64,000 nucleotides of DNA from Rugalucina vietnamica (taxonomy: Eukaryota; Mollusca; Bivalvia; Lucinida; Lucinidae): positions 46,060,997 through 46,124,996 of the forward strand of contig OZ024883.1 in the NCBI GenBank assembly GCA_964017185.1, given 5' to 3'. A program made the translations under genes and the position numbers. Under the pieces are notes generated by a model. The model was not told the origin of the DNA. It saw only the letters and a program-made list of their open reading frames with translations, and did no database searches. This document shows, in pieces, positions 35,545 through 63,084 of this stretch. Numbering within the stretch: position 1 is the stretch's first letter; every line of letters begins with the position of its first letter.

Positions 35545-35779
35545 GAGCCGCGACGTGAGAAAACCGGTCTTCGGGGTTTCCGACCAGGTCCGACACAAAC
35601 TGAGCTGTGCAAGCACAGAAGATGACTAGAGACTGTAAATTTTGGATTTAGAAAGAAGGGGAATTGTACTATCCGTGTAGCGAAAACAAAGCCGCTGATC
35701 AGCTTCGCAGTTACTGCGAAGCTGATCTGCGCCTTTGTTTTCGCATAAGCGAAAATCCGGTTTTCTCATGACGCGGCTC
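35545..35779. mobile_element. Palindromic MITE (235 bp) inserted in LINE-A
   Basis: The ends are inverted repeats: GAGCCGCGACGTGAGAAAAC at the left and the complementary ...TTTTCTCATGACGCGGCTC at the right. The centre is a long hairpin around GATCAGCTTCGCAGT and ACTGCGAAGCTGATC. AAAT occurs on both sides (35,541-35,544 and 35,780-35,783). Removing the element with one AAAT joins the LINE-A reading frame exactly in phase, which supports the boundaries and a 4-bp duplication. There is no coding capacity. Related copies are at 44,429, 60,750 and 62,456, with a terminal fragment at 32,117. Confidence 0.85.
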
Positions 35780-35783
35780 AAAT

Positions 35784-36887
35784 AATTCTAGTCCTGAGAA
35801 TTCTAGTCTTGAAAGTGTTAATACTAGTCATGAGGATTCTACATTTGATGCATCACTTGGCTTACTCGAGCTTAGTGATGTATCAGATGATATGAATGTC
35901 TCAAATGATGCTATGATTTTAAAGGAACATACCTACTCTATACCTGATAATTCATTGTCAGTCAAGCTGGTTTATATCAATGTATATTGCCTACTTTCAA
36001 AGTTGCGTTACCCGGATTTTGAGGAATTCTGTCAGTCTTATGACATAATTTGTTTAGCTGAGAGTAAGTTGGGTTCTTTTGATAGTTTTGACATTCAGAA
36101 CTTTAGCATTTTGCACTTGATTAATCGTAAGCAAGCCAAAATAAGATCAGGTGGAATTGCAGTCTTGGTTAAGGATACTATTTTTGAACATGTTAAGGTT
36201 TTAAATAGTAGTTCTGAAAACGTGTTATGGTTTACAGTTAATAATTCGTTGTTACATGAGTTAGTATTATTTGGTGTTGTTTATATACCTCCTGAAAGTA
36301 GTTCATACAGTAAAATAAGCATTTTTGGTTCCATTGAGAATGACATATTAACATTAAATCCTGAAAATAATCACAGAATCTGTTTGATAGGGGATTTCAA
36401 TGCTCATACATCAAATGCTGATGATTTTATTTATGTAAATGAGTATATCTGTGACAATTTTAATTTGGATGATGTCACAAAACAAGTTTTACATAAAAGT
36501 TTACTTGAAGATTTGGGCATAACTACTACTAGATATAATTCTGATAAATCTAAGATTGATAATTATGGATCTCGCCTTTTAGGTATGTGTAAGAGTTTTG
36601 ATATACACATTGCAAATGGTAGGTTGTTTAAAGACAGGGGTATTGGAGCTGCTACTTGTAAAAATACAACTGTTGTTGATTATTGTATTATGTCACCTGA
36701 ATTGTTTTCATATGTGTCAAACTTTGAAATTTTACCTTTTGATCCCTTGTTGAGTGATGTACATAATGGCATTGCTGTTGAATTTTTAAGCAAGCCTGTA
36801 AAGGCAGATGTATTTGAGGTAGAGGAGCAGCCCACAAAAAATGCAAATGGTCTAATGAGAAAAAAGACACCTTTATCAATTCATTAG
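35784..36887 (+). pseudogene. LINE-A apurinic/apyrimidinic-type endonuclease domain
   Basis: Nicks target DNA to prime reverse transcription in non-LTR elements. The domain is marked by VYINVYCLLSKL near its start, the catalytic-type DIICLAESKLGS, GGIAVLVKD, CLIGDFNAHTS and a C-terminal SDVH motif, in family order. An ATG at 35,892 lies inside the open stretch, but the frame is already open upstream of it. The frame ends at 36,887 only because of a one-base shift in an A run near 36,838. The correct frame continues with FINSLDLLSVLELEHK. Confidence 0.8.
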
Positions 36888-37423
36888 ATTTACTATCAGT
36901 TTTAGAACTTGAGCATAAAATGTCTGATATTTTGTCTACGGACTGTGCCAACGTTAACCAAACAATTATTGACTCTCTTGTTGAAAATTGTAATAAGATT
37001 TTATTAGATGCAGCGTCAGAATCTGATATGTTTTTTACCACAAAACATAAAAAACTACTGTTAAAAAAATTAAAAAGCCTTGGTTTAATAGAGATTGTTT
37101 TATTAAACGTAAAGAATATTTTAAGGCCCGAAATTTAAGTTGGAGAACTAAATCTACAGAAAACAGCAGTGGCGGATTTAGAGGGGGTTCGGGTGGTTCG
37201 CTTGAACCCCCCTCTGGTACCAAATTATTTCCATTTCATGGGGAAATTTATTCAAAATAAGGTAAAATATTGAAAACGAACCCCCTCTTGAGGGATTTGA
37301 ACCCCCCTTCCAGAAATCCTAGATCCGCCCCTGAACAGAACAAATCTAATCCGTTGTAGTAAAGCATACAAAAAAGAAATTAATAAACAATACAATGCTT
37401 ACAGAAAGGATTTTATTTCAAAG
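36888..37423 (+). pseudogene. LINE-A linker between endonuclease and RT, frameshifted
   Basis: After the first shift the sequence continues with SDILSTDCANVNQTIIDSL, then a second shift in an A run near 37,065 leads to KKPWFNRDCFIKRKEYFKA, a KPWF-type linker typical of these ORF2 proteins. The TIR element at 37,167-37,333 is inserted just downstream. Beyond it the frame resumes with NLIRCSKAYKKEINKQYNAY, directly ahead of the reverse transcriptase. Confidence 0.75.
37167..37333. mobile_element. 167-bp TIR element with 5-bp target duplication, in LINE-A
   Basis: The element begins CAGTGGCGGATTTAGAGG and ends CCTAGATCCGCCCCTG, which are inverted repeats of each other with a few mismatches. AACAG lies on both sides (37,162-37,166 and 37,334-37,338). 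Removing the element and one AACAG restores an unbroken reading frame in LINE-A, which strongly supports the borders. The interior is G- then C-rich (runs of GGGGG and CCCCCC). CAGTGGCGGAT-type ends are common in small non-autonomous DNA transposons of marine invertebrates; the superfamily is not assigned. Confidence 0.85.
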
Positions 37424-38558
37424 TTGAGAAGTATGAAGACGAATGATCCTAAATCATACTGGTCGCTAATAAATAAATCCACGGAAAAACAAAAATCTGT
37501 TGTGAACAAAGTGGCTTTGGAAACTTTTTATGACCATTTCAAAAACCTTAGCAATGAAAATAATGAGCCTGTTGCATTCACATTTGATATTGAAAATGTA
37601 GATATTAATGATAATACTGAGGTAAATAGACCTTTTTCTGAAGCTGATATACTACAGGCTATAAAATCCTTGAAAAATAACAAAAACTGTGGTACTGACT
37701 TAATTTTGAATGAATTCCTGAAATGTGCCTCTGGAAAAATGTTGAATGTATTGAAGCTTTTTAATATTGTTTTTGAGTCAGGAATTGTACCAAATAGTTG
37801 GACTGAAGGCATAATTTGTCCTATTTATAAAAATAAAGGTGATGTGAATGATCCAGACATTATAGAGGAATTACTATTTTAAGCTGTTTTGGTAAATTGT
37901 TTACTTCTGTTTTAAATAGCAGACTTAATTGTTTTTTGGAGAGTATGAATGTATTATGTGAAGAACAGGCTGGTTTTAGAAAAGGTTATAGTACTATGGA
38001 TCATATCTTTAATCTTAAATGTCTAGTTGATTTGTACATGTATCTGCACCGAAATAAGCATTTATTTTGTGCATTTATTGATTATAGGAAAGCTTTTGAC
38101 TCAGTAAATCGTTTGGCATTGTGGCAAAAACTTTTACAGCAAAATGTAAATGGAAAAATGTTAAAGATTATTTATAGTATGTACGATAGTGCAAAATCAT
38201 GTGTTCGGCAAAACCAACATTTGTCAAATTATTTTTTTAGCAATGTTGGAGTCCGTCAGGGTGAGAACTTATCCCCAATACTCTTTTCACTGTTTTTGAA
38301 TGACTTAGTAGAGTTTATTTCACATGGATTTGATGGTTTGACAAATATAACTGAAGCTATACATTTGTTTTGTGACACCGATGATGTAGAAGTCTATTTT
38401 AAACTGTATCTCTCGTTATATGCCGATGATACAGTCATTTTGGCTGAGTCTCAGGAACAGCTGCAGGCTGCACTAAATTCTATGTATTTGTATTGTCAAA
38501 CATGGAAACTTTAAGTAAATCCTGCAAAAACTAAAGTGGTTATATTTTCTGAAAGAAA
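37424..38558 (+). pseudogene. LINE-A reverse transcriptase domain, broken
   Basis: RT motifs appear in order: KNNKNCGTDLILNEFLKCA, GIICPIYKNKGDVNDP, EEQAGFRKGYSTMDHIF, FCAFIDYRKAFDSV (catalytic Asp of motif A), GVRQGENLSPILFSLFLNDL and LYADDTVILAE (YADD of motif C, near 38,416-38,433). A one-base loss near 37,858 puts the frame into a stop at 37,882, and a TAA sits at 38,512 after CQTWKL. The following codons (VNPAKTKVVIFSERK) show that the domain went on. LINE-B is inserted directly after them. The copy cannot make active enzyme. Confidence 0.9.
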
Positions 38559-38831
38559 GTGACCTGGCTACGTATCTGGCCTAGCAAATGGAGCCCAAAT
38601 AACGTAATCATACGGATAAATGTCGAAGATGACGAGTTTGCAGATCGGCTACTGTCTCCAACATTTTGGCCTCGGGGAGTCAGGTGCAGGCCTTGGGTAG
38701 ATAGAAGGGGCGGTTACTCTGATCGACGCGCTACTAATCGTTCAAACTTTGATCGGCAGCTATACGGTCGGGCTGATGTTGATGATTACAATCCTTTCTC
38801 TCCCCTGAGGAATGAATTAAATATTGACTAA
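38559..38831 (+). pseudogene. LINE-B ORF1, C-terminal fragment
   Basis: The frame is open from the truncation point with no ATG of its own. It includes WSPNNVIIRINVEDDEFADR, the segment FWPRGVRCRPW, an Arg/Gly-rich stretch and a short acidic end. FWP.GV.CRPW followed by a basic tail looks like the end of a nucleic-acid-binding ORF1 protein. It stops 33 bp before the ORF2 start, the close spacing usual for such elements. Confidence 0.6.
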
Positions 38832-38864
38832 AGTTAAGTACATTAGTAACCACGACCCTTTTTC

Positions 38865-41800
38865 ATGGCAGAAACCATTAATCAAACCATAAATATCCTA
38901 AGTTGGAATGCCACTGGCATTATGTCAGGCTCGACCTATCTTAGCAATATTCTTAACCAACGACAAATAGATATTTGCGGCATTTCAGAACATTGGTTGT
39001 ATGAAAAAGATTTAATGTTTTTGGATAAGTTAGACAGTAACTATCGCAGTTTTGCTGTCTCGGACGTATCGTTAAGTTTCCCTACAAAAAGGAAAGTCGG
39101 AAAAGGGGGTGTTGCTATTTTGTGGCATAAAAGACATGATCAATATATCGCCCCATTGGATATAGATGATGATCGAATTATAGGCATTAAGTATAACTGC
39201 AGTCTTAACTCCGCGTTGTATATTTTCCAAATGTATTTGCCATGTAGCAACTATTCATTGATAGCGTTTACGGAATATATTGATAAATTGCGAAATATTT
39301 TGAATTTGTATACCGAGAAAGGTATTGTAGTTCTAATGGGTGATATGAACGTTAATCTTCTGCCGAATGCCTCTCAAGTAAATCCTACAGGGAGAAAGCT
39401 GCGGTTTCTAGATTTCTTACGTGACAAGAATCTTATTTCTCTCACTACGTTAGAGTCGTGTGCTGGTGCAAGCTCTTCTTTTGTCTCCTATGATAATTCA
39501 ACCGAGTCACTAATTGACCACATCTTATTTCCGGTTGAAAAATTGCTGTATGTAAATCAATGTGAAATTTGCGATGATGATTGTTTAAATGTATCTAGAC
39601 ACAGGCCTATTGCTTGTCAAATACGAATTCCAACATTTAGCCAGTGGTCTTTTGGTTATGAGGGTGATAACTCTATTAATTGGAAAATGGTATCAGATGA
39701 AACTTTGGTTAACTATAGGCAGCGTTTGAGCGATGATATCTCGATACAAAATATTTTAAATAACGACTTTGTTTCTGAAACCGACATTAATAACGCATAC
39801 TCAACTATTGTTTCTGTAGTTAAGAAGGCTGCTGTAGAGTCCCTACCCATAAAGAAATTTAAAAGTTTTTTGAAGCCATATTGGAATGACGAATTAAAAG
39901 GTCTGCATAAAGAAATGAAATGTAAACGTGCAAATTGGATTCGCAGTGGTAGACCGAGGGGAAATAACTCGGAATCATACACTATCTATAAAACGGCTAA
40001 GTGTGACTTTAGACGTATACATCGCCGTATAGTGGACGCATTTATGAAACGCCAAATTGAGGAAATCGATCGCGTGGCAGAAATAGATAGTACGCTGTTC
40101 TGGCGCTTAGTAAACGCTAAACGTAAAAAGTCAGCGTCAGCCGTCTGTGCTGATATAAATTTTAATGGTCATATGGCCTCTACTCCGCAAGAAATTACCG
40201 ATGGTTGGGCTGAGCACTTTGAAACGTTGTATTCATCCTCGGATGATCCTCGATTTGATGATGAGCATAAAAATCATATTTCAAGGCAGCTGCAAATTAT
40301 TAATGAAAATCTAGCCTTTTCAGAACCGCCGACCATTAGTACGGAAGAAGTCGAAGCGGCTGTACGTCTCGGCAAAAAGGGAAAAGCCGCAGGTGATGAT
40401 GGCATCACGTACGAACATATAGCTTTTGGGGGTGAAATTATATTCGTGTTGCTTGCTAAATTTTTTACGGCCATGCTAAAGCACTCACACGCACCTGATG
40501 ACATTAAACGAGGGATTATCATAACGTTATTTAAAGGGGGTAATAAAAGAAAGGATAACCCGGACAATTACAGGGCAATAACTCTCTCGTCTGTAATTCT
40601 TAAACTATTCGAAAGGATATTACTTACTCGCATTCAGCTTTTTGACAATTTGTGCCCGCCTATACATCCGCTTCAAGGAGGCTTTCAAAAGAACATGGGT
40701 TGTTTAATGACGTCATTCTTATTAAGGGAGACCGCTAACTATGCAAATGAAAACGGGAGCTTATTATATGTTTGTTTTCTAGATGTAAGAAAAGCGTTTG
40801 ACTGAGTATGGCATGATGGCCTATTTTATAAGCTGTACAATATTGGTATTGATAAAGCCATATTCAAAATTCTACAAAATTTGTATAAGGGTATGACAAG
40901 CTGTGTAAAGTTTCATGGTTGTAGGTCGGACTGGTTCCCAATAAATCAAGGTACCCGTCAGGGGGGAGTTATTTCCCCTTTCCTTTTTCTAGTATATTTC
41001 AATGATCTGTTGTACGAACTAGAAAGATCGGGTTTAGGTATATGCATGCACAATTTATGCTTGTCTAGTCCAGCAGTAGCTGATGATTTGCTAGTAGCGT
41101 CTCTTTCAAGATCTGGTCTGAATGGTTTAATGAGAATATGTTTTATATATGCTTGTCTTTGGAGGTTTTTACATGCAGCTCTTAAAAGTGCAGTGGTGGT
41201 CTTAAACGAAAAAAGGTTGAAATATTTATCAGCTCAAAGAATTTGGAAACTCGGAGATGAATTAGTTCCAGAAAAAGATCAGTATAAACATTTGGGTATT
41301 ATTTGTGAAAAGAACTTGGGTCTAAACGAAGTAATTGCTGAAGCATGTAAAAAACTCAAAAGCATTTTTTTGAATATTGCTAACTGTGGTTTGCATGATA
41401 ATGGGCTTAACCCTATCACGTCCCTTCGTATTTATAATTCTGTAGTCCTACCAAAGGCACTATACGGTTGTGAGTTATGGTGCGATATGTCTCCAAAATA
41501 TATGTTACCTTTAGAAAGAGCTCATCGTTTTTGTCTGAAATTTATGCAAAACCTACCACGTAATACAAAAACAGAAGTAGTATTGAATTTAATTGCAAGT
41601 AAAACAATAGAAGAAGAAATAGATAGGCGTAAACTCATGTTTTTTGAACAATTATGTAATTTGCCAAGCCATCTACTTGTTAAAGAGTTCTTTATACATA
41701 GATTAATGAACTATTTTGATAACCCTAGACGACAGGTTGGGTTTATTCCTGATATGCACAGAATTTTAGAAAAATATTCATTGACATTTGCTTTGCAAGA

Positions 41801-42341
41801 TTTTATGGAACATGGCCGTTTTTTGTCAAAATACTATTGGAAACGACTTTTGAAAGAAAGAATGTCTTCACAATGTCGTAATGAATTATTGTTGAAAGCT
41901 AATGACTCTGCATCTTTAACTCGCTTTCTTAAAATTCATGATTCGCCTGAACCATACATGTTATATCATGTTATCAGAGAAACGCCAAAGCTGTACAAGT
42001 ATGGCAAGTTAGCAGTCCGTCTATTGGGTTTTTTGTTTTCTGGTGATTATACTATGGTATGTCGCTCATGTGGTGTTGTAACTAGTAAGTTGACAGAGCA
42101 TCTGTTACTATTTTGTACTGACAATGAAACTTTTCGTACTAGATTGTGGCAGGGTTTAATTTACCGTTTTGGTGTTAACTTTTTTAATAGATTTATAACA
42201 TTATCTCCAGCAGATCAAGTAAACAGTCTTTTCTCTGGTTGCTCCAACATTTTACAAAATGAAGTTGACATGAAATATTGTTTTAGATTATTTGTTGTAT
42301 CTCTAGGTAAAATTAATTTTACACAACGTATACAGCTCTGA
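38865..42341 (+). pseudogene. LINE-B ORF2 (endonuclease-reverse transcriptase) with one internal stop
   Basis: One frame of 1,158 codons is interrupted only by TGA at 40,803-40,805, within motif A (FLDVRKAFD, stop, VWHDGL). Residues 1-260 are the AP-type endonuclease: INILSWNATGI, ISEHWL, VLMGDMNVNL, LIDHILFPVE and the S.HRP motif in NVSRHRPI. The reverse transcriptase covers about residues 480-800: GKAAGDDGITYEHIAFG, ITLFKGGNKRKDNPDNYRAI, HPLQGGFQKNMGC, GTRQGGVISPFLF and SPAVADDLLVAS, where the usual YADD is VADD. A CRSCG...HLLLFC zinc-binding-like motif lies near residue 1066. The start ATG is upstream of the whole endonuclease, and the length suits a complete ORF2. Confidence 0.9.
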
Positions 42342-48776: not shown

Positions 48777-51700
48777 TTACGTGCGGCTGCTACAGACGTT
48801 TTCTAGTATGTATAGAAAGCGAGCCACGAAGCAATAAAAATGCATTTTGTGCTCAGTGTCTAAGAGATCTGCAATAAGACCATAATTGCCAAACAGGACG
48901 GATAATAGAGTCTCACTATCAAATCCGGCCAGTCTAATATACAGGTCCACACCAAACTTTCTCCAAATGCCATTCCACATTTTGTGCCTATGGCTAGCAT
49001 TCACATTACACCAGAGAAGGCAATGAGATGTGTAATTCAATGCTAAGCTTCCGCATGCCGAGCAAACCCTTTCAGGAAGTCTGTTAAGCCACAATGAGAT
49101 TAACCTAACAGCAGATTTGCATATGCTTATCATGTTTGGGTGTTGTTTGCAGATTTCCCAGAACAGTGACGGTTTTGCCTCTGGTTGAATAGCCAAGAAG
49201 ACATGAAGTCCCTCGTTGGTTGCTTGAGACATAGCATCGCGTTCAGCACATGACCTTAATTTGCTATTTACGAGTCTCTTCCAACAGTATTTGGACAAAA
49301 ATCTTCCAGAGTTCATGAAATCAGTGAGAACATATTCAAACTCATAGTCTTTGAGTAGCTGGGATATGTCATAGATGAAACCATAGGTAATATTCCCGAA
49401 AAGATATTGTGATGTTAATCTGTACAAGAAAAGCCGCTTCGCAGCATAAAACGTGTCAAGCCTACAAAGTTGTCCAAACAACGTCAGCTTACGCTTATGG
49501 ATCTCGAATATCAAACTAGATGTTCCTAATAAGCTGAGTGCGACACATGTTATTGTACGTCTGTCCATATTCTGCATAGATTTAACACAGAAACGATGTG
49601 ATCTTTCTAGCAAGAGAATGTCATTTTGGCACAAATTACTCCACAGTTTACATCCGTACAGTGCTCTAGGAATAACTATTGATTCGTAAATCCGTTTCAG
49701 AGTATATGGGTGCAGTTCCATCCCGTCGTATTCGCAGCTAAAAACACCAAAAAATGTTTTACGAATCTTCGACGCTGAGTCACTGATGTTTCGTTTTACT
49801 TTCATGTCCTTGTTCACCAGAAATCCAAGATGTGTGTATTCAATCCCCTCTTGTATTTCAGCATTGCCAAGAAACCATCGACGGTGTGAACGGTTGTATG
49901 CGGCCATTAGTTCATTGAAGACTATAACCAGGCATTTTAGTATATTATAATCCAGGCGCCATTTCTTGAAGTATATGACACAGATATTTATTAGCATTTG
50001 TAATCCATTCTTAGTTAACGATTGCAAAAGCATATCATCTGCAACACTTGGACAGGTCGAATTTATCCCATTTATAACTAATCCAAAGCCAGAATCACAC
50101 AGCTGATTGAGTAAATCGTCAATAAAACACAAGAACATGTAAGGGGAAAGAACTCCTCCTTGTCTAGTTCCACGTCGTATCTTAAACGGTTTAGATTTAA
50201 AACCACGAAATAACACAAAGCTGCTAAGTTCAGTATGTAGAGATACAATGAGTTTCCACAAATAAAAGTCTAGACCCATTTCATACAGTTTTAAAAACAG
50301 TCCGTCGTGCCAGACTTTATCGAACGCCTTTTGGGCGTCGAGAAAACAGGCGTATAATTTACTATTATTCTCTTTTGCATAGTTAATGCTTTCTTGCAAG
50401 ATAAAGGATGTCATATTGCACCCCATATTCTTTTGGAAGCCACCCTGTAACGGATTAAGGTGAGTATCAATACTTTGGACGATTCGCTTGTATAGCAATT
50501 TTTCAAACAACTTTAACAGTGCCGATGTTAATGTGATCGCCCTATAACTGTTCGGATCATCTTTGCGTTTGTTACCTCCCTTGAATAGAGTAATAATAGT
50601 GCCAGTTTTCATTTCCTGTGGAATATGAGAGTACTTTATCATCGCATTGAATAGATTAATAAGCCCTTTCCGAAAAATAGGGCCACTGTTAATTAAATGT
50701 TCGTTGTCAATTTTATCCTCGCCAGACGCTTTCCCGGTACTCAGTTCTGAAATTGCGGTGTCCAATTCCTGTTCCTGAATAGGAGTTATATCACTATTGT
50801 CAAAATGGCGTTGTTTTAGGATAGTAACTTGTGATGTAACATAATCATAATGATTACTGTCATAATTATTATTATCAGTGTCACTATAGAGAGAGCCGAA
50901 GAAGTTCCCCCATTCGGTACATATAACTTCCGAATCACGACATGTTTTATTATTGAACACTATTTCAGCACCGATGTTACTGGAATTATTACTTTTTCTC
51001 CTGTTAATAAGCTTCCAGAAATAGTCACAATTGATTTCCGCAGCACGATCTATTTCCTCATTTAGAGATTTAAGATAGTTTTCTGCACACTTCCTGTGAT
51101 ATTGTCTAAACACACGCTTTGCTTGTTTATAAGAACGGTATGACTCAAATAGCACACCCCGTGGTCTATTATCTAAAATCCAGATTCTACGTTTATCTCT
51201 CATCTTTTTGTGCAGATTCTTCAGAGTGTCATCCCAGTACGGTTTCAAAAACTGCTTAAATCCTTTCCGATAAGGGAGATGATTTTTAGAAGATGATAAC
51301 AAAACTAATCTTATGTCATTATACATAGTATCTATATCTTGTGTGGTATTAATTGATCTGACATATAATTTGTCGTTTTCAGATTGCTTTTCAACGTCCT
51401 GTCTGTAGTTTGCTATAACATTTGGCTTACTACCACGCCATTTGACACTCTGATTCACCATAGGGAACGGTTTGACAGGTTGCTCGCCATGCGGAAGCTT
51501 AACATTACAATATATAGGCCTATGAGTTGATACGTTTAAGGCATTATCATCTAATATTTCACATACAGATACCAAATCGCCTTTCTCGACAGGCAAGAGG
51601 ATATGATCGATCATAGATGATTGCTCACCGGAGTAAGATACATAAGTTGACATAGCTCCTATGCACGTCGGTAAAGTATTAATCGAAACTAAGTTATTAC

Positions 51701-52022
51701 CCACTAGAAACTGCGTTAATAAACCACTACGCCCGTCAGCAGGTTTAATAAATGTTGCTCCATTAAGATGAGCATTAAAGTCGCCCATTATCAGTATTGT
51801 GCCTCTTTCTCCGTATTTACTATAAATGTCCTGCAGTTTCAGCATGTAATCACTTAATTCCGAAATTGGGTGATTCGATGATGGCAGGTACACCTGTATT
51901 ATGTAAACATAATTATTACTAGAAATTTGATACTGAATACCGACTATACGGTCATCTTCGATATTGAGTATAGCCACTCTATTATCAAAGCTTTTCTTCC
52001 AAAACAAGGCAACACTTCCCAT
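48777..52022 (-). CDS. LINE-C ORF2, 1,081 codons open, 5'-truncated endonuclease-reverse transcriptase
   Basis: The frame is unbroken but starts inside the endonuclease. The ATG at 52,022-52,020 belongs to the flanking LINE-D sequence (CAT of its His codon), so this start arose at the insertion junction and is not the native one. Visible motifs are ILIMGDFNAHLNG near residue 80, SMIDHILLPVE, NVSTHRPIYC, the RT blocks TGTIITLFKGGNKRKDDPN, CFLDAQKAFDKVWHDGL (about residue 560), RRGTRQGGVLSPYMF and CPSVADDMLLQSL (about residue 660, VADD instead of YADD), and CSACG...HCLLWC near residue 985. Roughly 85 N-terminal residues are missing compared with LINE-B. The stop TAA is at 48,777-48,779. The open RT frame suggests recent insertion. 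Confidence 0.9.
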   Translation of the reverse strand: MGSVALFWKKSFDNRVAILNIEDDRIVGIQYQISSNNYVYIIQVYLPSSNHPISELSDYMLKLQDIYSKYGERGTILIMGDFNAHLNGATFIKPADGRSGLLTQFLVGNNLVSINTLPTCIGAMSTYVSYSGEQSSMIDHILLPVEKGDLVSVCEILDDNALNVSTHRPIYCNVKLPHGEQPVKPFPMVNQSVKWRGSKPNVIANYRQDVEKQSENDKLYVRSINTTQDIDTMYNDIRLVLLSSSKNHLPYRKGFKQFLKPYWDDTLKNLHKKMRDKRRIWILDNRPRGVLFESYRSYKQAKRVFRQYHRKCAENYLKSLNEEIDRAAEINCDYFWKLINRRKSNNSSNIGAEIVFNNKTCRDSEVICTEWGNFFGSLYSDTDNNNYDSNHYDYVTSQVTILKQRHFDNSDITPIQEQELDTAISELSTGKASGEDKIDNEHLINSGPIFRKGLINLFNAMIKYSHIPQEMKTGTIITLFKGGNKRKDDPNSYRAITLTSALLKLFEKLLYKRIVQSIDTHLNPLQGGFQKNMGCNMTSFILQESINYAKENNSKLYACFLDAQKAFDKVWHDGLFLKLYEMGLDFYLWKLIVSLHTELSSFVLFRGFKSKPFKIRRGTRQGGVLSPYMFLCFIDDLLNQLCDSGFGLVINGINSTCPSVADDMLLQSLTKNGLQMLINICVIYFKKWRLDYNILKCLVIVFNELMAAYNRSHRRWFLGNAEIQEGIEYTHLGFLVNKDMKVKRNISDSASKIRKTFFGVFSCEYDGMELHPYTLKRIYESIVIPRALYGCKLWSNLCQNDILLLERSHRFCVKSMQNMDRRTITCVALSLLGTSSLIFEIHKRKLTLFGQLCRLDTFYAAKRLFLYRLTSQYLFGNITYGFIYDISQLLKDYEFEYVLTDFMNSGRFLSKYCWKRLVNSKLRSCAERDAMSQATNEGLHVFLAIQPEAKPSLFWEICKQHPNMISICKSAVRLISLWLNRLPERVCSACGSLALNYTSHCLLWCNVNASHRHKMWNGIWRKFGVDLYIRLAGFDSETLLSVLFGNYGLIADLLDTEHKMHFYCFVARFLYILENVCSSRT

Positions 52023-52814
52023 TTTGTGGCAAGTTGGTATCGACCTCCAGATGGTAAGATAGAGGAACTCGAGTTATTCAAAGACCAACTTGAAAAGGTG
52101 AAAACTTTACATAAAGGAAACAAACCACCCTCGGTCCATGTCTTGGGTGACTTCAACTTCAGAGATATTGTTTGGCCAGATAGACTCAACAAACACGGTT
52201 TTTCATTGAGCGTGTCTGAAGGTGCAAAGTTGGTAGAACTTATAAGTGACCATGAATTGGAACAGGTAGTGCACTTCCCCACAAGAGGACAAAACACATT
52301 GGATTTGATTATCACTTCACTTCCCGGACAATGTGTTGATATTCATTCCCCGGACAGGCTTAGTGATCATGACATTGTCTCTGGAACTTTGAAAATAGTT
52401 ATTCCCCCCATCAAGAAACCTAAGAGAAAGGTGTATAAATATCAGAAAGGTGATTATGAATCTATGAAAGGTGCTGCCCTTAAATTTGCAAAGGAGAAAT
52501 ATTTCAACGGTTACTCTGGCACACGGTCGGTTCAAGAAAACTTTAATTTGATCACATCTTTTATCCAGGAATCAGTGAATAAACATATCCCATCAAAGAC
52601 AAGTCGCTCAGTTTCCTCAGTCCCATGGTTAACTCCTGAAATAAGAAGAAAGATTCGTAGAAAAAATGCAACTCACGCTAAAGCGAAGAAAACTGGGAGT
52701 GCAAAATTTAGAACAAAATTTGAAACTTTGAGAAGAGAAATCAAAGCAGATATCAGAAATCAGCATGAGTTGTATGTAAATAACTTAGTTGGTGATGTTA
52801 AGGCTAATCCAAGA

Positions 52815-53006
52815 GATTTTTATCGGTACATAAATAGTCAGAAAAAAGATGTTCAAGGTATCCCCCCTTTGAAAAAGCGAAATGGAAGTGGTCTTGCTGA
52901 ATCAGATTTTGATTTTTATCGGTACATAAATAGTCAGAAAAAAGATGTTCAAGGTATCCCCCCTTTGAAAAAGCGAAATGGAAGTGGTCTTGCTGAATCA
53001 GATTTT
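52815..53006 (+). repeat. Exact in-frame tandem duplication of 96 bp in LINE-D
   Basis: 52,815-52,910 is repeated base for base at 52,911-53,006, duplicating 32 residues (DFYRYINSQKKDVQGIPPLK through AESDF) just before the RT domain. GATTTT is present at the start of each unit and after the second, so slippage or unequal exchange between GATTTT sites is a likely origin. The reading frame is kept. Confidence 0.95.
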
Positions 53007-54523
53007 GAAAAGGCTGGTGAATTCAATGGTCAGTTTACGGATGTGTTCACCAAAACTGAACATAGCCAGGTCCCTCTTTTGAATAGAAAAGCCCCGTTTA
53101 TGGAAGACATAGTGGTATCCAAAGAAGGTGTCACAAAACTTCTGAAAGGTTTGAACCCGTCGAAAGCTTTAGGTCCTGATGAGCTTCATCCTAGAGTCCT
53201 TAAGGAATTGGCATCTGAGCTAGGTCCTGTTTTTGCACATCTTTTTCAACAGTCAATAGACTCTGGTGAAATCCCCAAAGAATGGTCTTTAGCAAACATT
53301 TGTCCCCTGTTCAAAAAGGCTGACAGGTCTCTTGCTTGCAACTATCGTCCAGTTTCCTTGACCTGCGTACCCTGCAAACTTCTGGAACATATAGTGTGTT
53401 CTAATATCATGTCCCATTTGGATCATCATAAACTTTTGTCAGACGGGCAACATGCATTTAGGAAATCCCATAGTTGTGAAACCCAGTTAGCTACAGTGAT
53501 TGATGACTGGGCAAAAATCTTAGACAATCAAGGTCAGGTTGATACATTTATCTTGGATTTTGAAAAAGCTTTTGACACTCCTCCGCATGAACTCCTTAAA
53601 AGCAAATTGTTCAGTTATGGAATTGGTGGGAAGACAATTAAATGGATTGATGCTTTCCTTTGCTATAGACAACAAAGAGTTGTGGTTAATGGCGTTAAAT
53701 CAGACTGGGCTCCTGTTGTATCTGGTGTCCCACAGGGCACCGTTCTTGGCCCCTTGTTGTTTTCGTTGCATATAAATTATATCACCTCAGATATTGAATC
53801 GGAAATCAGACTCTTTGCTGATGATTGTGTTTGTTATCGTGAAATTAAGAATGTGGAGGATACAGTGAAACTTCAGAAGGATATTGATCGATTAGGTAGT
53901 TGGGCCAGGAAATGGGGTATGAGATTTCAACCTGTCAAGTGCAACATGATGCAGCTGACAAATAAACGTACTAGTAAAATTCAGGCTTCTTACAAGCTTG
54001 AGGGTACTGTGTTGGAAAATGTTGAGAGTATCAAATATCTTGGTGTAACAATAACTAAGGATTTAAAATGGAATACTCACATCAGCAATGTGTGTACCAA
54101 AGCCAATAGGACCCTTGGTTTTTTGAGACGAAATCTGTTTTCTTGCCCCCAAGATGTAAGAGAAGCTGCCTATAAAGGTCTGGTGAGACCTATTCTTGAA
54201 TATGGTAGCTCAGTTTGGGACCCTCATTATGAAGGTCTGATAGATGATTTGGAGAAGGTGCAAAAGCGTGCGGCTAGGTTTGTAACTAGGAACTATACAT
54301 ATGAAAAAGGTAGTATGACTGGCATCCTTAAAAAACTAAAATGGGAATCCCTGCAGAAAAGAAGGAAGGATAATAGAATTATATTACTTTACAAAGGTCT
54401 AAAAGGGAGAGCAAAAATACCCACGGATGACCTTATCCCCAAAAATAGGCGTTGTAGGAATCAACACTCCTTGGCATTTCAGATACCTTCAGCAAGTACA
54501 AATGCCTATTTACACAGTTTCTT

Positions 54524-54537
54524 CCCCCCCCCCCCCC
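54524..54537 (+). repeat. Run of 14 C in LINE-D
   Basis: It lies in the coding part where related elements usually have a short Phe-Pro-Arg/Gln segment before TIRDWN. The run is read as PPPP here. Homopolymer length may be wrong in the assembly. Confidence 0.8.
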
Positions 54538-54613
54538 AGACCATTAGAGATTGGAATGAACTCCCTGATTCTCTGATCTCCTCTGCTGAATTGTCAGATG
54601 ATTGTGTGTCTAA

Positions 54614-54806
54614 AGGGCCTGTTACAGGGTATGGGAAATTAACATGGGAGTTTGTCCACGCATGGAATTTTATGAAATTATGGGCATTTATTGTCTTGGT
54701 TATGACTGCTATAATAATGGTGTATTCCCTTGTAAATTTAATTCCACTGGCAAAATATGACGTAATAAATGACGTCACTACGATAGCTAAGGGCACCCCA
54801 CTTTAA
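54614..54806 (+). CDS. Possible terminal host exon with one membrane segment (uncertain)
   Basis: After LINE-D sequence ends, the frame stays open for about 60 codons and stops at TAA 54,804-54,806. It encodes VTGYGKLTWEFVHAWNFMK and a hydrophobic run WAFIVLVMTAIIMVYSLVNL of membrane-segment length, followed by a polar end. Possible splice acceptors are AAAG at 54,612-54,615 and TTACAG ending at 54,627. AATAAA follows at 54,860-54,865. This is what a last exon with a short 3' UTR would look like. Chance continuation of the open frame is the alternative. I do not recognise the product and see no upstream exon in the window. Confidence 0.3.
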
Positions 54807-59131: not shown

Positions 59132-59420
59132 AATGTTACAGTGCTTGTTGACCCTCGCAGCGTTGGTTGCCATTCATTTACTGGGATTCGCACATGGCAC
59201 CGCTGATCATGTTGACATCAGCCCGACTGACATGTATGCGCGCAGTCTGGACGATTCACGGCACGTAGATCGTCTAGAGAGACATAAACGTCAATCTGGG
59301 ACGTCAGAAGTACGTGAGATGTTTGTTACACAGTGTGGTTACTATAACACAGAACCCGTGGCGGAGCCCAGCATCAACGTGAAAGGCGTTGATCTCAATA
59401 ACTGGGCTGCGGTGGAAAAG
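59132..59420 (+). CDS. Coding exon 1: signal peptide and propeptide
   Basis: The acceptor is a T-rich tract ending CAG at 59,131; the ATG starts one base into the exon. It encodes residues 1-96 including the signal peptide, the RHKR cleavage site and VTQCGYYN. The exon ends AAG|GTGGGT in phase 0. An in-frame stop lies soon after the donor. Confidence 0.75.
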
Positions 59421-59562
59421 GTGGGTTATTGTAGTACTTTGATAAAACAAGTTTCCAAGTTTATTTGTTCTCTCTCAGTTTACAATGTATGTAAAAACAT
59501 GAGATAAACTGACATGCAGAAAGGTTATGGCGGTATCAAATGAACAAACACAAAAATATACA

Positions 59563-59644
<82 letters not shown>

Positions 59645-62600
59645 CTAAACATACACATATATATGCTGAGGGCGACCTAGGTGGACAAGGATTGTATACA
59701 CCCAAGTATACTAGTTTAGATTATTCAAGGGAGAGAAGAGTGAATCATTTCGAACTCTTCAAAAACAAGCGGTTATTTTTCTTACACCAGCGTCGAAAGC
59801 GACGTGCTGGTTCCCAGACAAATCGTGTAAATTTTTCTATTTTTTTTCACATAGTGACATTTGAATGCTACACGACCACGGTTAACAGTTATAACATGAT
59901 ATTACACTCTAGATAGTGACGAGTAGCGCGGTCGCCAGCTGGTTGAGGAGTCGGACATCGCACCAGACGGTCCCAGAGACAGTGGCTTCGAAGCCCATCG
60001 GCGCCAGGTTGTGTTTTTGACCAAGACACATTAACTCCCCATACTAAGTACATATACTGGTTAATAGCCAGGAAGCGATGAACCTCCAGACATGACTGAA
60101 ATATGTTGACTGTGACGTTAAATCACAAAGGACTAATAGAGATTGTAAAGAGGCCTCATTATTATAAACGCATATTTTTCTCTCCAACAGACTGCAGAGT
60201 TGGTTTATCTGATGGTGCGGTTTATGCCACGACCTATATTCGTTCAGCTAGCATCCAACAGTAGTGTGGGTCTATTCAGCGTAATCAGCCTGCCTACATT
60301 GGTTTTTGATGAGTTTGCGGACATTGGTGGATGCCTTGGTAAATAATCTCCTTTGTTTAGATCCCTTGATTTGGATATTAGTAATGTTTTACGATGTTGT
60401 ATCGTTCGGTGTGCTAAACATTTCAAGACTTAAAATCAACCATGTCACAAGATCTGGGAGATATGCTCAAAAACCGAATCATGCCAATGGAACTGAAGAA
60501 AAACAAGTTTATTCATTAATTGTGAAACATTTATCGTTTCAGCATCGTGCAGTGGCGACTGTGCCCAGTGGTGTACACCACCAGAGTACAGTTATTACTC
60601 GAGTTACCCGATCTCTTACCTCTGGGCATACGGTGGTGTATCCCGAACATTTGTGGTGGAAACCAACATGCTGTGTGAGGGTTATAACCCCAGTAATGGT
60701 CTGTAACATATTAGAACACTTCTTTTCGGTAGAAACCAGCATCGTACATGAGCCGCGTTATGAGAAAAACAACGATGTGGTTTTCGAACAGGTCCGACAC
60801 AAACCGAGCTGGACAAGCATAGAAGATGGCTAGAGACTGGAAATTTGGGGTTTAAAAAATAGAGGAATTTAACTATCCGTGTAGCGAAAACAAAGGCGCC
60901 CATAAGCTTCGAAGCTGATCTGCGCCTTGTACACTACCGCTCGCGTATTTGTACTCGTCGTTTACGCGTAACATACGCGCGTAATACGTGCGAATAACGC
61001 GCATAATTTATACGCGTACATGTCCATAACCAATAAGAAATCAATATCAATTACGCGTACCATGGAAATAATGCGCGTATATTACACACGATATCTTTAG
61101 CTAATGTGCGACCAAATCATTAAGCTAGTCATTACGCGTAATTCAGAGTATAACGCGTATATACGCGTATTGTTCCCACCAATCAGTAGTAAAACAGTCA
61201 GACACACACACGATACGCGTAATAAAACAGCCCATTATGTTAAGATTCCAATAACGCATCAAAATAGAAATGAACGAAGAAAAAACATGTCAAAACCTTT
61301 CCTCGAGAAATTCTGAATGCTTAGATCGGTATCATACCTGATCGCACAAAGACTAGTGTTTCAAAATATTGTGCTTGCGGGATTATTTCGAAGGAAAGCA
61401 TTTTCAGGGACTGTGTTTAATATATACATGCATATAAATAAGAAAAAGAAATCAAACCTGCCTTCATGAATCAGGAACAGCAGAGTTTGGAACACATTAT
61501 CCATCGTATAACAGGTTGAAAGTAAAGTCACACAAGTTTCACAATCACGATATATCAGTATAATCCATTAAACTTGCACTTAATTTTCATAACAATAACA
61601 ACATCAACATTTCGGTACTATAGCGTGTATACCTACTGTAATTACGCGTATGATACGCGTAATTACGCGTAGGCGTATAGACAATGTGATTGGCTTATCA
61701 TTCATGCGCGTAATGAACAAACCTTACGCGTATTGACGATTGTATGTATGCTTATGAATATTAATGAGATACAATACGCGTATATATGCCCATGTTACGC
61801 GTATGTTGCGCGTAAAAAGTCTTACGCACGTAATACGCGCAAATGGAGTACAAATACGCAAGCGGGATATACAAAATGTTGGTTTTCTCATGACGCGGCT
61901 AAGCTATAATACCGACCTTGTGAGGATGTTCTGGTAGTTTGTGATGGGAACCAACAAGTCTTGTGAGAAATACGTCTGTCAAATGTAACGTTTAATGATC
62001 TTTAATTTGTACGTATTGTAACATGCCTGTCAGACCAATAGCTAAATGTCAGGTTACGGACCCAGGGAGCGCCACAATAATCCGAGCCGCCTCTCAATAT
62101 ACATAATACCTGACCGTGAGTTAGTAACACTTTAGTCAAGTCTCTTTCAGTAGAAGATCATGAGGGCCTGCGTAGACGTTTTTAAAAACAAAATTCACGT
62201 GCGCCTTTATTCTTGGGGACTACTTTAATTTTGCAGGAAACGAGAACCTCCTTGTTCGAGAGTACGGTCTAACAGTGATGACACGAGGGGTGTCAAATGA
62301 AACGAGAGACGAAATCCGGCAAGCATTTTCTCTAGCTCAACAAAATGGGAAATGGCCGCAGATTCAAAATGAATATGAATATTTTATGAAGGCGACTTTG
62401 ATATGGTTTGATGCATCCAAACAGTTACTACAAGGTAAAACACTAATTCAACTATAAAACCTGTCTTCAGGGTTTCCAACTAGGTCCGACACAAACCGGT
62501 CTGTGCAGCCATAGAGGATGGCTAGAAGATTGAAATTTCGGATTTATGAAGAAGAGAAATAGTGCTATATGTGTAGCGAATACAAAAGCGCAGATCAGCT

Positions 62601-63084
62601 TCGCAGTTACTGCGAAGCTGATCTGCGCATTTGTTTTCGCATAGGCAAAATTCCGGTTTCTGCCGCGACTCAAATAATGTTATTTTGTGGTCCCGACTCT
62701 ACCTGGTGTCAAAACTTATAGGGGTGTCATATCATGCAGAAGATAAGCGTACTTGTAACCATGTTCATAAAATTCCCAAAGGAAACAAACAATGCTACTA
62801 ACATGACCCTTTCTTTGATACAAATGTCACGTATCTATAGTGTCATAGTGAACAGTAAAATATAATTCATACAAGAAACGAACCCATTCCCTAATATCTG
62901 TGTTCATTTTGCTTTGGTTTCAGGTGGAATGTCATGTAAAGCCCAGTTTAACTGTGCCTCAACCAATCCAGAACATAGACTCTACCTAAAACAAGAGGAT
63001 CCAGAGATATACAGATTGTTAAATCATATTTATAACAACAACAGAGAATATCTAAACGGTGAAACCTCCACTTGTAATTGGTGA
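59133..63084 (+). CDS. Secreted metallopeptidase-like protein with degenerate zinc site (5 coding exons, 316 aa)
   Basis: Joining 59,133-59,420, 60,191-60,338, 60,543-60,698, 62,237-62,434 and 62,924-63,084 gives 951 nt with every junction in phase and GT...AG borders. Residues 1-22 are a signal peptide (MLQCLLTLAALVAIHLLGFA), so the product should be secreted. RHKR at about 51-54 is a furin-type site. N-glycosylation sites are NSS and NET; the mature part has nine cysteines. The second half resembles a secreted zinc-metallopeptidase-like family I know from its motifs (ENLL...HEF.H..., A...G.W, EYF.E....WF, YDP.LY.LL). Here ENLLVREYGLTVMTRGV has R205 and L209 in place of both HExxH histidines, while E206 and NEYEYFMKATLIWFDA remain. 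I infer a non-catalytic homologue. Expression is not shown. Confidence 0.75.
59561..59644 (+). repeat. (AAT)n and (AAAT)n microsatellite in intron
   Basis: About 17 AAT repeats to 59,613, then about seven AAAT repeats, in the intron after coding exon 1. Confidence 0.9.
59925..60140 (+). mobile_element. tRNA-derived SINE in intron
   Basis: GTAGCGCGGTCG, then AGCTGGTTGAGGAGTCGGAC (A-box-like) and GTGGCTTCGAAGCCC (B box, close to GGTTCGAANCC) have tRNA-like spacing. The tail part includes GACTGTGACGTTAAATCACA, similar to conserved 3' parts of metazoan SINEs. The tRNA-like part cannot fold as a normal functional tRNA without mismatches, so I call it a SINE rather than a tRNA gene. Confidence 0.6.
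60191..60338 (+). CDS. Coding exon 2
   Basis: The acceptor is TTCTCTCCAACAG. It encodes residues 97-145 (TAELVYLMVRFMPRPIFVQL and DEFADIGGCL) and ends CTTG|GTAAAT in phase 1. Confidence 0.75.
60543..60698 (+). CDS. Coding exon 3: cysteine-rich segment
   Basis: The acceptor is ATCGTTTCAG. It encodes residues 146-197 with four cysteines close together (SCSGDCAQWC and MLC) and an aromatic stretch SYYSSYPISYLWAYGG. The donor GTCTGT is weaker than the others; phase 1 is kept. Confidence 0.7.
60750..61900. mobile_element. Palindromic MITE copy carrying a nested transposon, in intron
   Basis: The ends GAGCCGCGTTATGAGAAAAA and GGTTTTCTCATGACGCGGCT match the MITE at 35,545-35,779, and internal pieces such as AGGTCCGACACAAACCGAGC and CCGTGTAGCGAAAACAAAGG are shared. 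After GATCTGCGCCTT the element is interrupted at 60,929-61,872; the family sequence resumes at AAAATGTTGG. About 16 bp of the MITE seem lost at the insertion point. Confidence 0.8.
60929..61872. mobile_element. ACGCGT-studded TIR element nested in the MITE
   Basis: A 944-bp element. The left end GTACACTACCGCTCGCGTAT and the right end, read in reverse (GTATATCCCGCTTGCGTATT), share about 19 conserved positions running into TTTGTACT. The interior has about 13 ACGCGT hexamers, often as TACGCGTA, plus CGCG variants, in two subterminal blocks (60,964-61,222 and 61,643-61,804). The central 400 bp or so lack the motif. There is no credible coding frame. Dense subterminal motifs suggest transposase binding sites. 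Confidence 0.75.
62237..62434 (+). CDS. Coding exon 4: degenerate metallopeptidase core
   Basis: The acceptor is TTTAATTTTGCAG. It encodes residues 198-263, containing ENLLVREYGLTVMTRGV, RDEIRQAF, NGKWP and NEYEYFMKATLIWFDAS. It ends CAAG|GTAAAA in phase 1. It follows the longest intron (60,699-62,236), which is filled mainly by nested transposons. Confidence 0.75.
62456..62671. mobile_element. Palindromic MITE copy in intron 4
   Basis: It contains AGGTCCGACACAAACCGGTC, the long central hairpin GCGCAGATCAGCTTCGCAGT / ACTGCGAAGCTGATCTGCGC around a single T, and TTTGTTTTCGCATAGGC. The left end is truncated or diverged (AAAACCTGTCTTCAGGG) and the right end is short (CCGCGACTC). It starts about 20 bp after the exon 4 donor, so it shapes most of that intron. 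Confidence 0.75.
62924..63084 (+). CDS. Coding exon 5 and stop
   Basis: The acceptor is GCTTTGGTTTCAG. It encodes residues 264-316 with three cysteines (SCKAQFNC and TCNW) and LKQEDPEIYRLLNHIYNN, which resembles the C-terminal motif of the family. TGA is at 63,082-63,084. Confidence 0.75.

Follow-up and report, generated by a model that had tools for sequence, protein, structure and literature searches.

A likely secreted pseudopeptidase, related to zinc endopeptidases of the PPEP/lethal-factor fold, in the bivalve Rugalucina vietnamica

The DNA analyzed here (the window) is a stretch of 64,000 nucleotides from the lucinid bivalve Rugalucina vietnamica (contig OZ024883.1; C15:46060997-46124996 of a genome of 1.09 Gb). 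Its plus strand carries a five-exon gene for a metallopeptidase-like protein in which both zinc-binding histidines are replaced. The protein is likely to be a secreted pseudopeptidase, derived from an enzyme with the Pro-Pro endopeptidase (PPEP)/lethal-factor fold and now acting as an extracellular binding protein. An earlier note on this DNA, made from the sequence alone, had proposed a secreted metallopeptidase-like protein without its two zinc histidines, and this main inference was supported by the analysis.

Active-site residues lost and kept

In PPEP-3, according to the available part of a published account, zinc is bound by His153, His157 and, as third ligand, Glu197, with Glu154 serving as the base and Tyr190 as the residue of the oxyanion hole (PMC12828418). 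In the bacterial family member L081 the residues are H213, E214, H217, Y251 and E258, all invariant in the bacterial profile A3 described below, and the spacing of seven from tyrosine to glutamate equals that of PPEP-3. The same positions in the window gene were as follows.

62257..62271, plus strand: REYGL, residues 205-209, at the position of HExxH; R205 and L209 instead of the zinc histidines, E206 retained
62359..62376, plus strand: compared with relatives, some four residues missing from the alignment, the conserved oxyanion tyrosine among them
62377..62379, plus strand: E245, retained at the position of the third zinc ligand (role by PPEP-3 Glu197 in the available text of PMC12828418)

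Translation and alignment thus agreed with the earlier note that both histidines are gone and that E206 is kept. R205 is encoded by CGA (62257-62259) and L209 by CTA (62269-62271), each two substitutions away from a histidine codon, as had been claimed; the two codons together amount to at least four substitutions, to which a whole-codon gap is added. The downstream glutamate/aromatic motif, described in the note as kept, was retained only in part: EY is present, with E245 aligned to E258 of L081, but WAE/WAV has become FMK and about four residues have disappeared, among them the conserved tyrosine. The damage to the catalytic site had therefore been undercounted, since the oxyanion tyrosine, seven residues before the glutamate, is missing together with the HExxH zinc motif. 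The window protein reads R-E-L-gap-E, with two of the three zinc ligands and the oxyanion tyrosine lost.

The set H-E-H-Y-E was found in 84 of the 86 family frames counted over all 80 retained bacterial loci with the A3 profile, the other two being fragments that lack the region. The retrieval patterns held HE[FY][SA]H or EYW, so that the bacterial loci are skewed towards intact motifs. Among the eight frames that did not fit the first retrieval pattern, six cover the motif positions and all six were intact; two were fragments.

From the loss of the histidine pair and the tyrosine, the window protein is predicted to be zinc-less and catalytically inactive. Metal binding or catalysis could in principle persist through the retained E206 and E245 with substitute ligands. 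We consider this very unlikely, given that both histidines and the oxyanion tyrosine are gone and that all 84 bacterial frames covering the positions carry H-E-H-Y-E.

Relationship to a bacterial protein family

Profile A3 was built from 49 bacterial members and contains no sequence from the genome of the window. The window protein scored 32.8 bits against it, and 2000 shuffled versions of the protein scored at most 5.7 bits. Three other genes of the same genome, the sister genes C1, A and B, scored 194.9, 88.5 and 82.9 bits. The membership in a zinc-metallopeptidase-like family that the earlier note had proposed from the motif pattern is borne out by these scores. Because the A3 score lies far above all 2000 shuffles, the resemblance is not attributable to chance. 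A chance likeness could be argued from the lack of any match of the window protein in profile searches of Pfam and NCBIfam and from its PDB matches 1ly1 and 1fsi (E 0.58 and 0.95), which were treated as noise, but it is already contradicted by the shuffles and by the strong similarity to motif-carrying sisters, and we give it hardly any credence.

When prokaryote genomes were scanned with the window protein alone, none of 32 pattern matches was confirmed. A tblastn search against plasmids yielded eight Rhizobium records (best E 3e-3, residues 176-307), whose protein carries the motifs HEFSH and DEYWAEG. This protein, three more plasmid proteins and two genes of the mollusc genome formed alignment A2. 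A scan with A2 gave at least 589 pattern matches and at least 385 confirmed relatives; the best 80 of 385 loci were retained and include Pseudomonadota, Bacteroidota, Planctomycetota and Gemmatimonadota. Of these 80 loci, 52 were taken with HE..H required, and A3 comprises 49 of the 52 (L093, L098 and L100 were excluded).

The family is common on Rhizobium plasmids, which make up 51 of the 53 plasmid records that contained a match. In R. phaseoli R620 a member lies about 1 kb from nodA. Members on Rhizobium plasmids (L001, L005) are annotated as hypothetical protein or glycoside hydrolase.

The matches of the Rhizobium protein to 8v2d and 8v3b (E 0.0029) were short and three times repeated, and were treated as noise. 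A viral source of the family was unsupported: none of 193 pattern matches in viral contigs was a confirmed relative, tblastn of the Rhizobium protein gave no match in phages at E <= 1, and the viral fold library held nothing at E <= 0.001.

A metallopeptidase fold for the family, which the earlier note had expected but not named, was found by Foldseek for the bacterial member L081: its predicted structure matched PPEP-3 with a TM-score of 0.42 normalized by query and 0.60 by target. In a PDB search with profile A3 the best E value for lethal factor was 0.054, which was taken as no more than a hint. By its relationship to this family, the window protein would share the PPEP/lethal-factor catalytic fold.

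Sister genes in the same genome

At least three other family members are present in the genome. The matched exons of sister A lie at C14:46003317-46007376 (minus strand), sister B at C14:46022405-46026019 (plus strand) and the C1 gene at C1:86366347-86367303 (L113, L117). H-E-H-Y-E is intact in all three; HExxH thus survives in sisters from this bivalve genome, a point that the earlier note had left for checking. Sequence identity is 78% between A and B, 35% between A and the window protein and 33% between B and the window protein.

In the phylogenetic tree the window protein grouped with A and B (100/98), which agrees with the four-cysteine stretch common to the three; the pair A + B (98/76) did not reach the starred level. 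In their letter make-up, both A and B deviate from the alignment. The four genes of the genome did not form one group (two changes), and C1 stood among planctomycete proteins at an open fork. Seven of the ten cysteines of the window protein align with sister cysteines. The loss can be polarized because the genome also contains motif-bearing sisters and because motif-bearing relatives abound in bacteria, and its simplest reading is a loss on the lineage of the window gene.

A and B are on opposite strands and point apart, about 15 kb from each other on C14; the sequence that separates them includes 5000 consecutive N (about C14:46013431-46018430). The first exon of sister B was not found. At L019 (C14:46025634-46026019) B has two similar candidates for its last exon, one after the other, which may be alternative ends or a partial tandem copy. 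The C1 protein carries HEMSH...EYFAEG and is 49% identical to a planctomycete protein; a frame with an ShK domain (Pfam ShK, 33.7 bits) lies about 0.6 kb downstream of the gene.

No paralogue was recognized in the weak matches at C15:42576185, C14:52394214, C13:34153543 and C3:74251121, the loci having been examined in part (at C14:52394214 without its open reading frames being looked at). Downstream on C15, a match resembling the motif lacked an open context.

Structure of the window gene

The exons and the features of the N-terminal region were located as follows.

59133..59420, plus strand: exon 1; signal-peptide-like start, propeptide, RHKR site and start of the mature protein; donor gtgggt, phase 0
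59133..59198, plus strand: signal-peptide-like residues 1-22, a hydrophobic N-terminal stretch judged by eye from the translation
59280..59291, plus strand: furin-type site RHKR, residues 50-53, fitting R-x-K-R; sister gene A has RPKR ahead of the domain
60191..60338, plus strand: exon 2; N-terminal half of the peptidase-like domain, aligning to the sister genes
60543..60698, plus strand: exon 3; four-cysteine stretch common to the sisters (C144 from exon 2; C148, C152, C156) and VETNMLC block
62237..62434, plus strand: exon 4; active-site helix and third-ligand helix
62924..63084, plus strand: exon 5; C-terminal part (DPEIYRLL), last cysteines and stop codon

The five exons join in phase to 951 nt, encoding 316 residues and a stop, and all four introns have GT...AG borders, exactly as the earlier note had modelled them. 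Judged by eye, sister gene A has junctions at the corresponding places between exons 1 and 2 (phase 0) and between exons 2 and 3 (phase 1). The model is supported because A matches these two junctions and carries an RPKR/RxKR stretch before the domain, also read by eye. The 3/4 and 4/5 junctions do not agree: those of the sisters differ in place or in phase, again by eye. Read from its sequence, with the signal peptide judged by eye, the protein is probably secreted and furin-processed.

One alternative is a wrong gene model, in which the real transcripts use other exons, for instance one with an intact HExxH. It could draw on the exon 3/4 junction, which differs from that of A and B, whose intron follows the motif. 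The exons align in order to the sisters, however, and the domain aligns to bacterial members; sister A agrees in the place and phase of two junctions; and tblastn over the window, the genome and 30 kb downstream recovered the five exons but no other exon with the motif at the locus. We regard this explanation as very unlikely.

Maintenance or decay of the gene

The reading frame of the window gene is open over 316 codons. In a substitution-only simulation of 2000 copies of the coding sequence, 39%, 10%, 1.3% and 0.05% were still open at 0.02, 0.05, 0.1 and 0.2 changes per site, respectively.

Several observations weigh against a maintained binding protein of this fold. The window branch carries 3.29 changes per column, compared with 0.22 for A and 0.10 for B; such a branch also fits relaxed constraint, and the tree tool warned that long branches may be meeting, which makes the position of the window protein less sure. 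The window protein lacks two cysteines of the sisters, and its C268 is displaced by one position. Finally, the TM-scores of L081 to PPEP-3 are moderate, and the evidence for the fold comes from this bacterial member.

The most serious alternative is a young, non-functional pseudogene, in which the catalytic residues have drifted and stops have not yet appeared. The very long branch and the two lost cysteines favor it. Against it stand the intact frame, the four GT/AG introns, the RHKR site and most cysteines, the small share of simulated neutral copies that remain free of stops at 0.1 substitutions per site (given above), and motif changes that are multi-step, with a gap in whole codons. We therefore hold a pseudogene to be unlikely, though it outranks the other alternatives. 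A maintained protein is favored on balance from the sequence, because the frame is open, the motif changes took several steps, the gap is of whole codons and most cysteines are kept. Homology to motif-bearing enzymes, swapped catalytic residues and an otherwise intact gene, three of the marks by which pseudopeptidases are recognized, were found.

Proposed origin and role

The domain would descend from a zinc endopeptidase with the PPEP/lethal-factor catalytic fold. After duplication, the two zinc histidines and the tyrosine of the oxyanion hole would have disappeared from this copy, whereas its reading frame and splice sites, the majority of its cysteines and the part of the motif that serves structure were kept. 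The protein would be exported, processed by furin and act outside the cell, where the former cleft or another surface may hold a peptide or partner without cutting it. It could serve as an antagonist or decoy for substrates of the sister enzymes, or as a partner of these enzymes. A binding role is favored because proteins are known to become non-cutting by losing zinc ligands while the scaffold is kept; a review of metallopseudopeptidases, in its available part, describes how they interact through pseudo-active sites or other surfaces (PMC11266112). By this analogy, we infer an extracellular antagonist, decoy or partner of the sister enzymes. More tentatively, and as a possibility that we would not bet on, the zinc-less secreted product of the duplication may antagonize the sisters, or else bacterial enzymes that share the fold, by binding the substrate or the enzyme itself without cleavage.

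Other features of the window

Diverged tandem repeats, most of them about 64 base pairs long, fill some 28 kb at positions 306-28446; the GC skew there is strong (0.21-0.27, measured in steps of 4 kb up to 28 kb). Several long open reading frames at 35772-42341 and 48777-54806, on both strands, resemble pieces of endonuclease/reverse transcriptase of the long interspersed nuclear element type, by eye.

Comparison with known systems

Pfam names this bacterial and animal protease-like family poorly, although at least 385 relatives were confirmed; the two animal sisters scanned fell below the cut-offs. For ATLF (PF07737; cut-off 27.4 bits) sister genes scored 15.5 (A) and 14.8 bits, and for Peptidase_M90 (PF06167; cut-off 26.2) gene A scored 20.6 bits; the window protein matched neither. 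Of the 49 bacterial members, 18 matched ATLF (best 5e-7) and 20 matched Peptidase_M90 (best 1e-6) at E <= 0.1. The likeness to Peptidase_M90 consists of these 20 members and the weak match of sister A. The catalytic domain of anthrax lethal factor (ATLF), with its N-terminal domain, belongs to a toxin, whereas the window protein is a host protein. PPEP-1, -2 and -3 are secreted bacterial zinc proteases; the window protein differs from them in lacking both histidines and the tyrosine and in bearing a four-cysteine stretch and a propeptide.

Among the matches listed in open-licence literature, as judged by title and start of abstract, there was no mollusc paper on this family and none on a pseudopeptidase of this fold. 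The PPEP/lethal-factor fold belongs to family M34. The table of the metallopseudopeptidase review, in its available part, covers families M1, M12, M13, M14, M16, M24 and M41, and its main text contains neither "M34" nor "lethal factor" (PMC11266112). The PPEP-like CD1597, discussed as a possible inactive pseudoprotease in the available part of another paper, keeps HEXXH (PMC11460543). With the window protein, one more fold family would join those whose proteases have apparently been made non-cutting in animals. The event itself is of the same type as in ADAM2, ADAM22, gone early and other metallopseudopeptidases, in which, according to the available text of the review, catalytic-site residues are swapped and relatives are active (PMC11266112).
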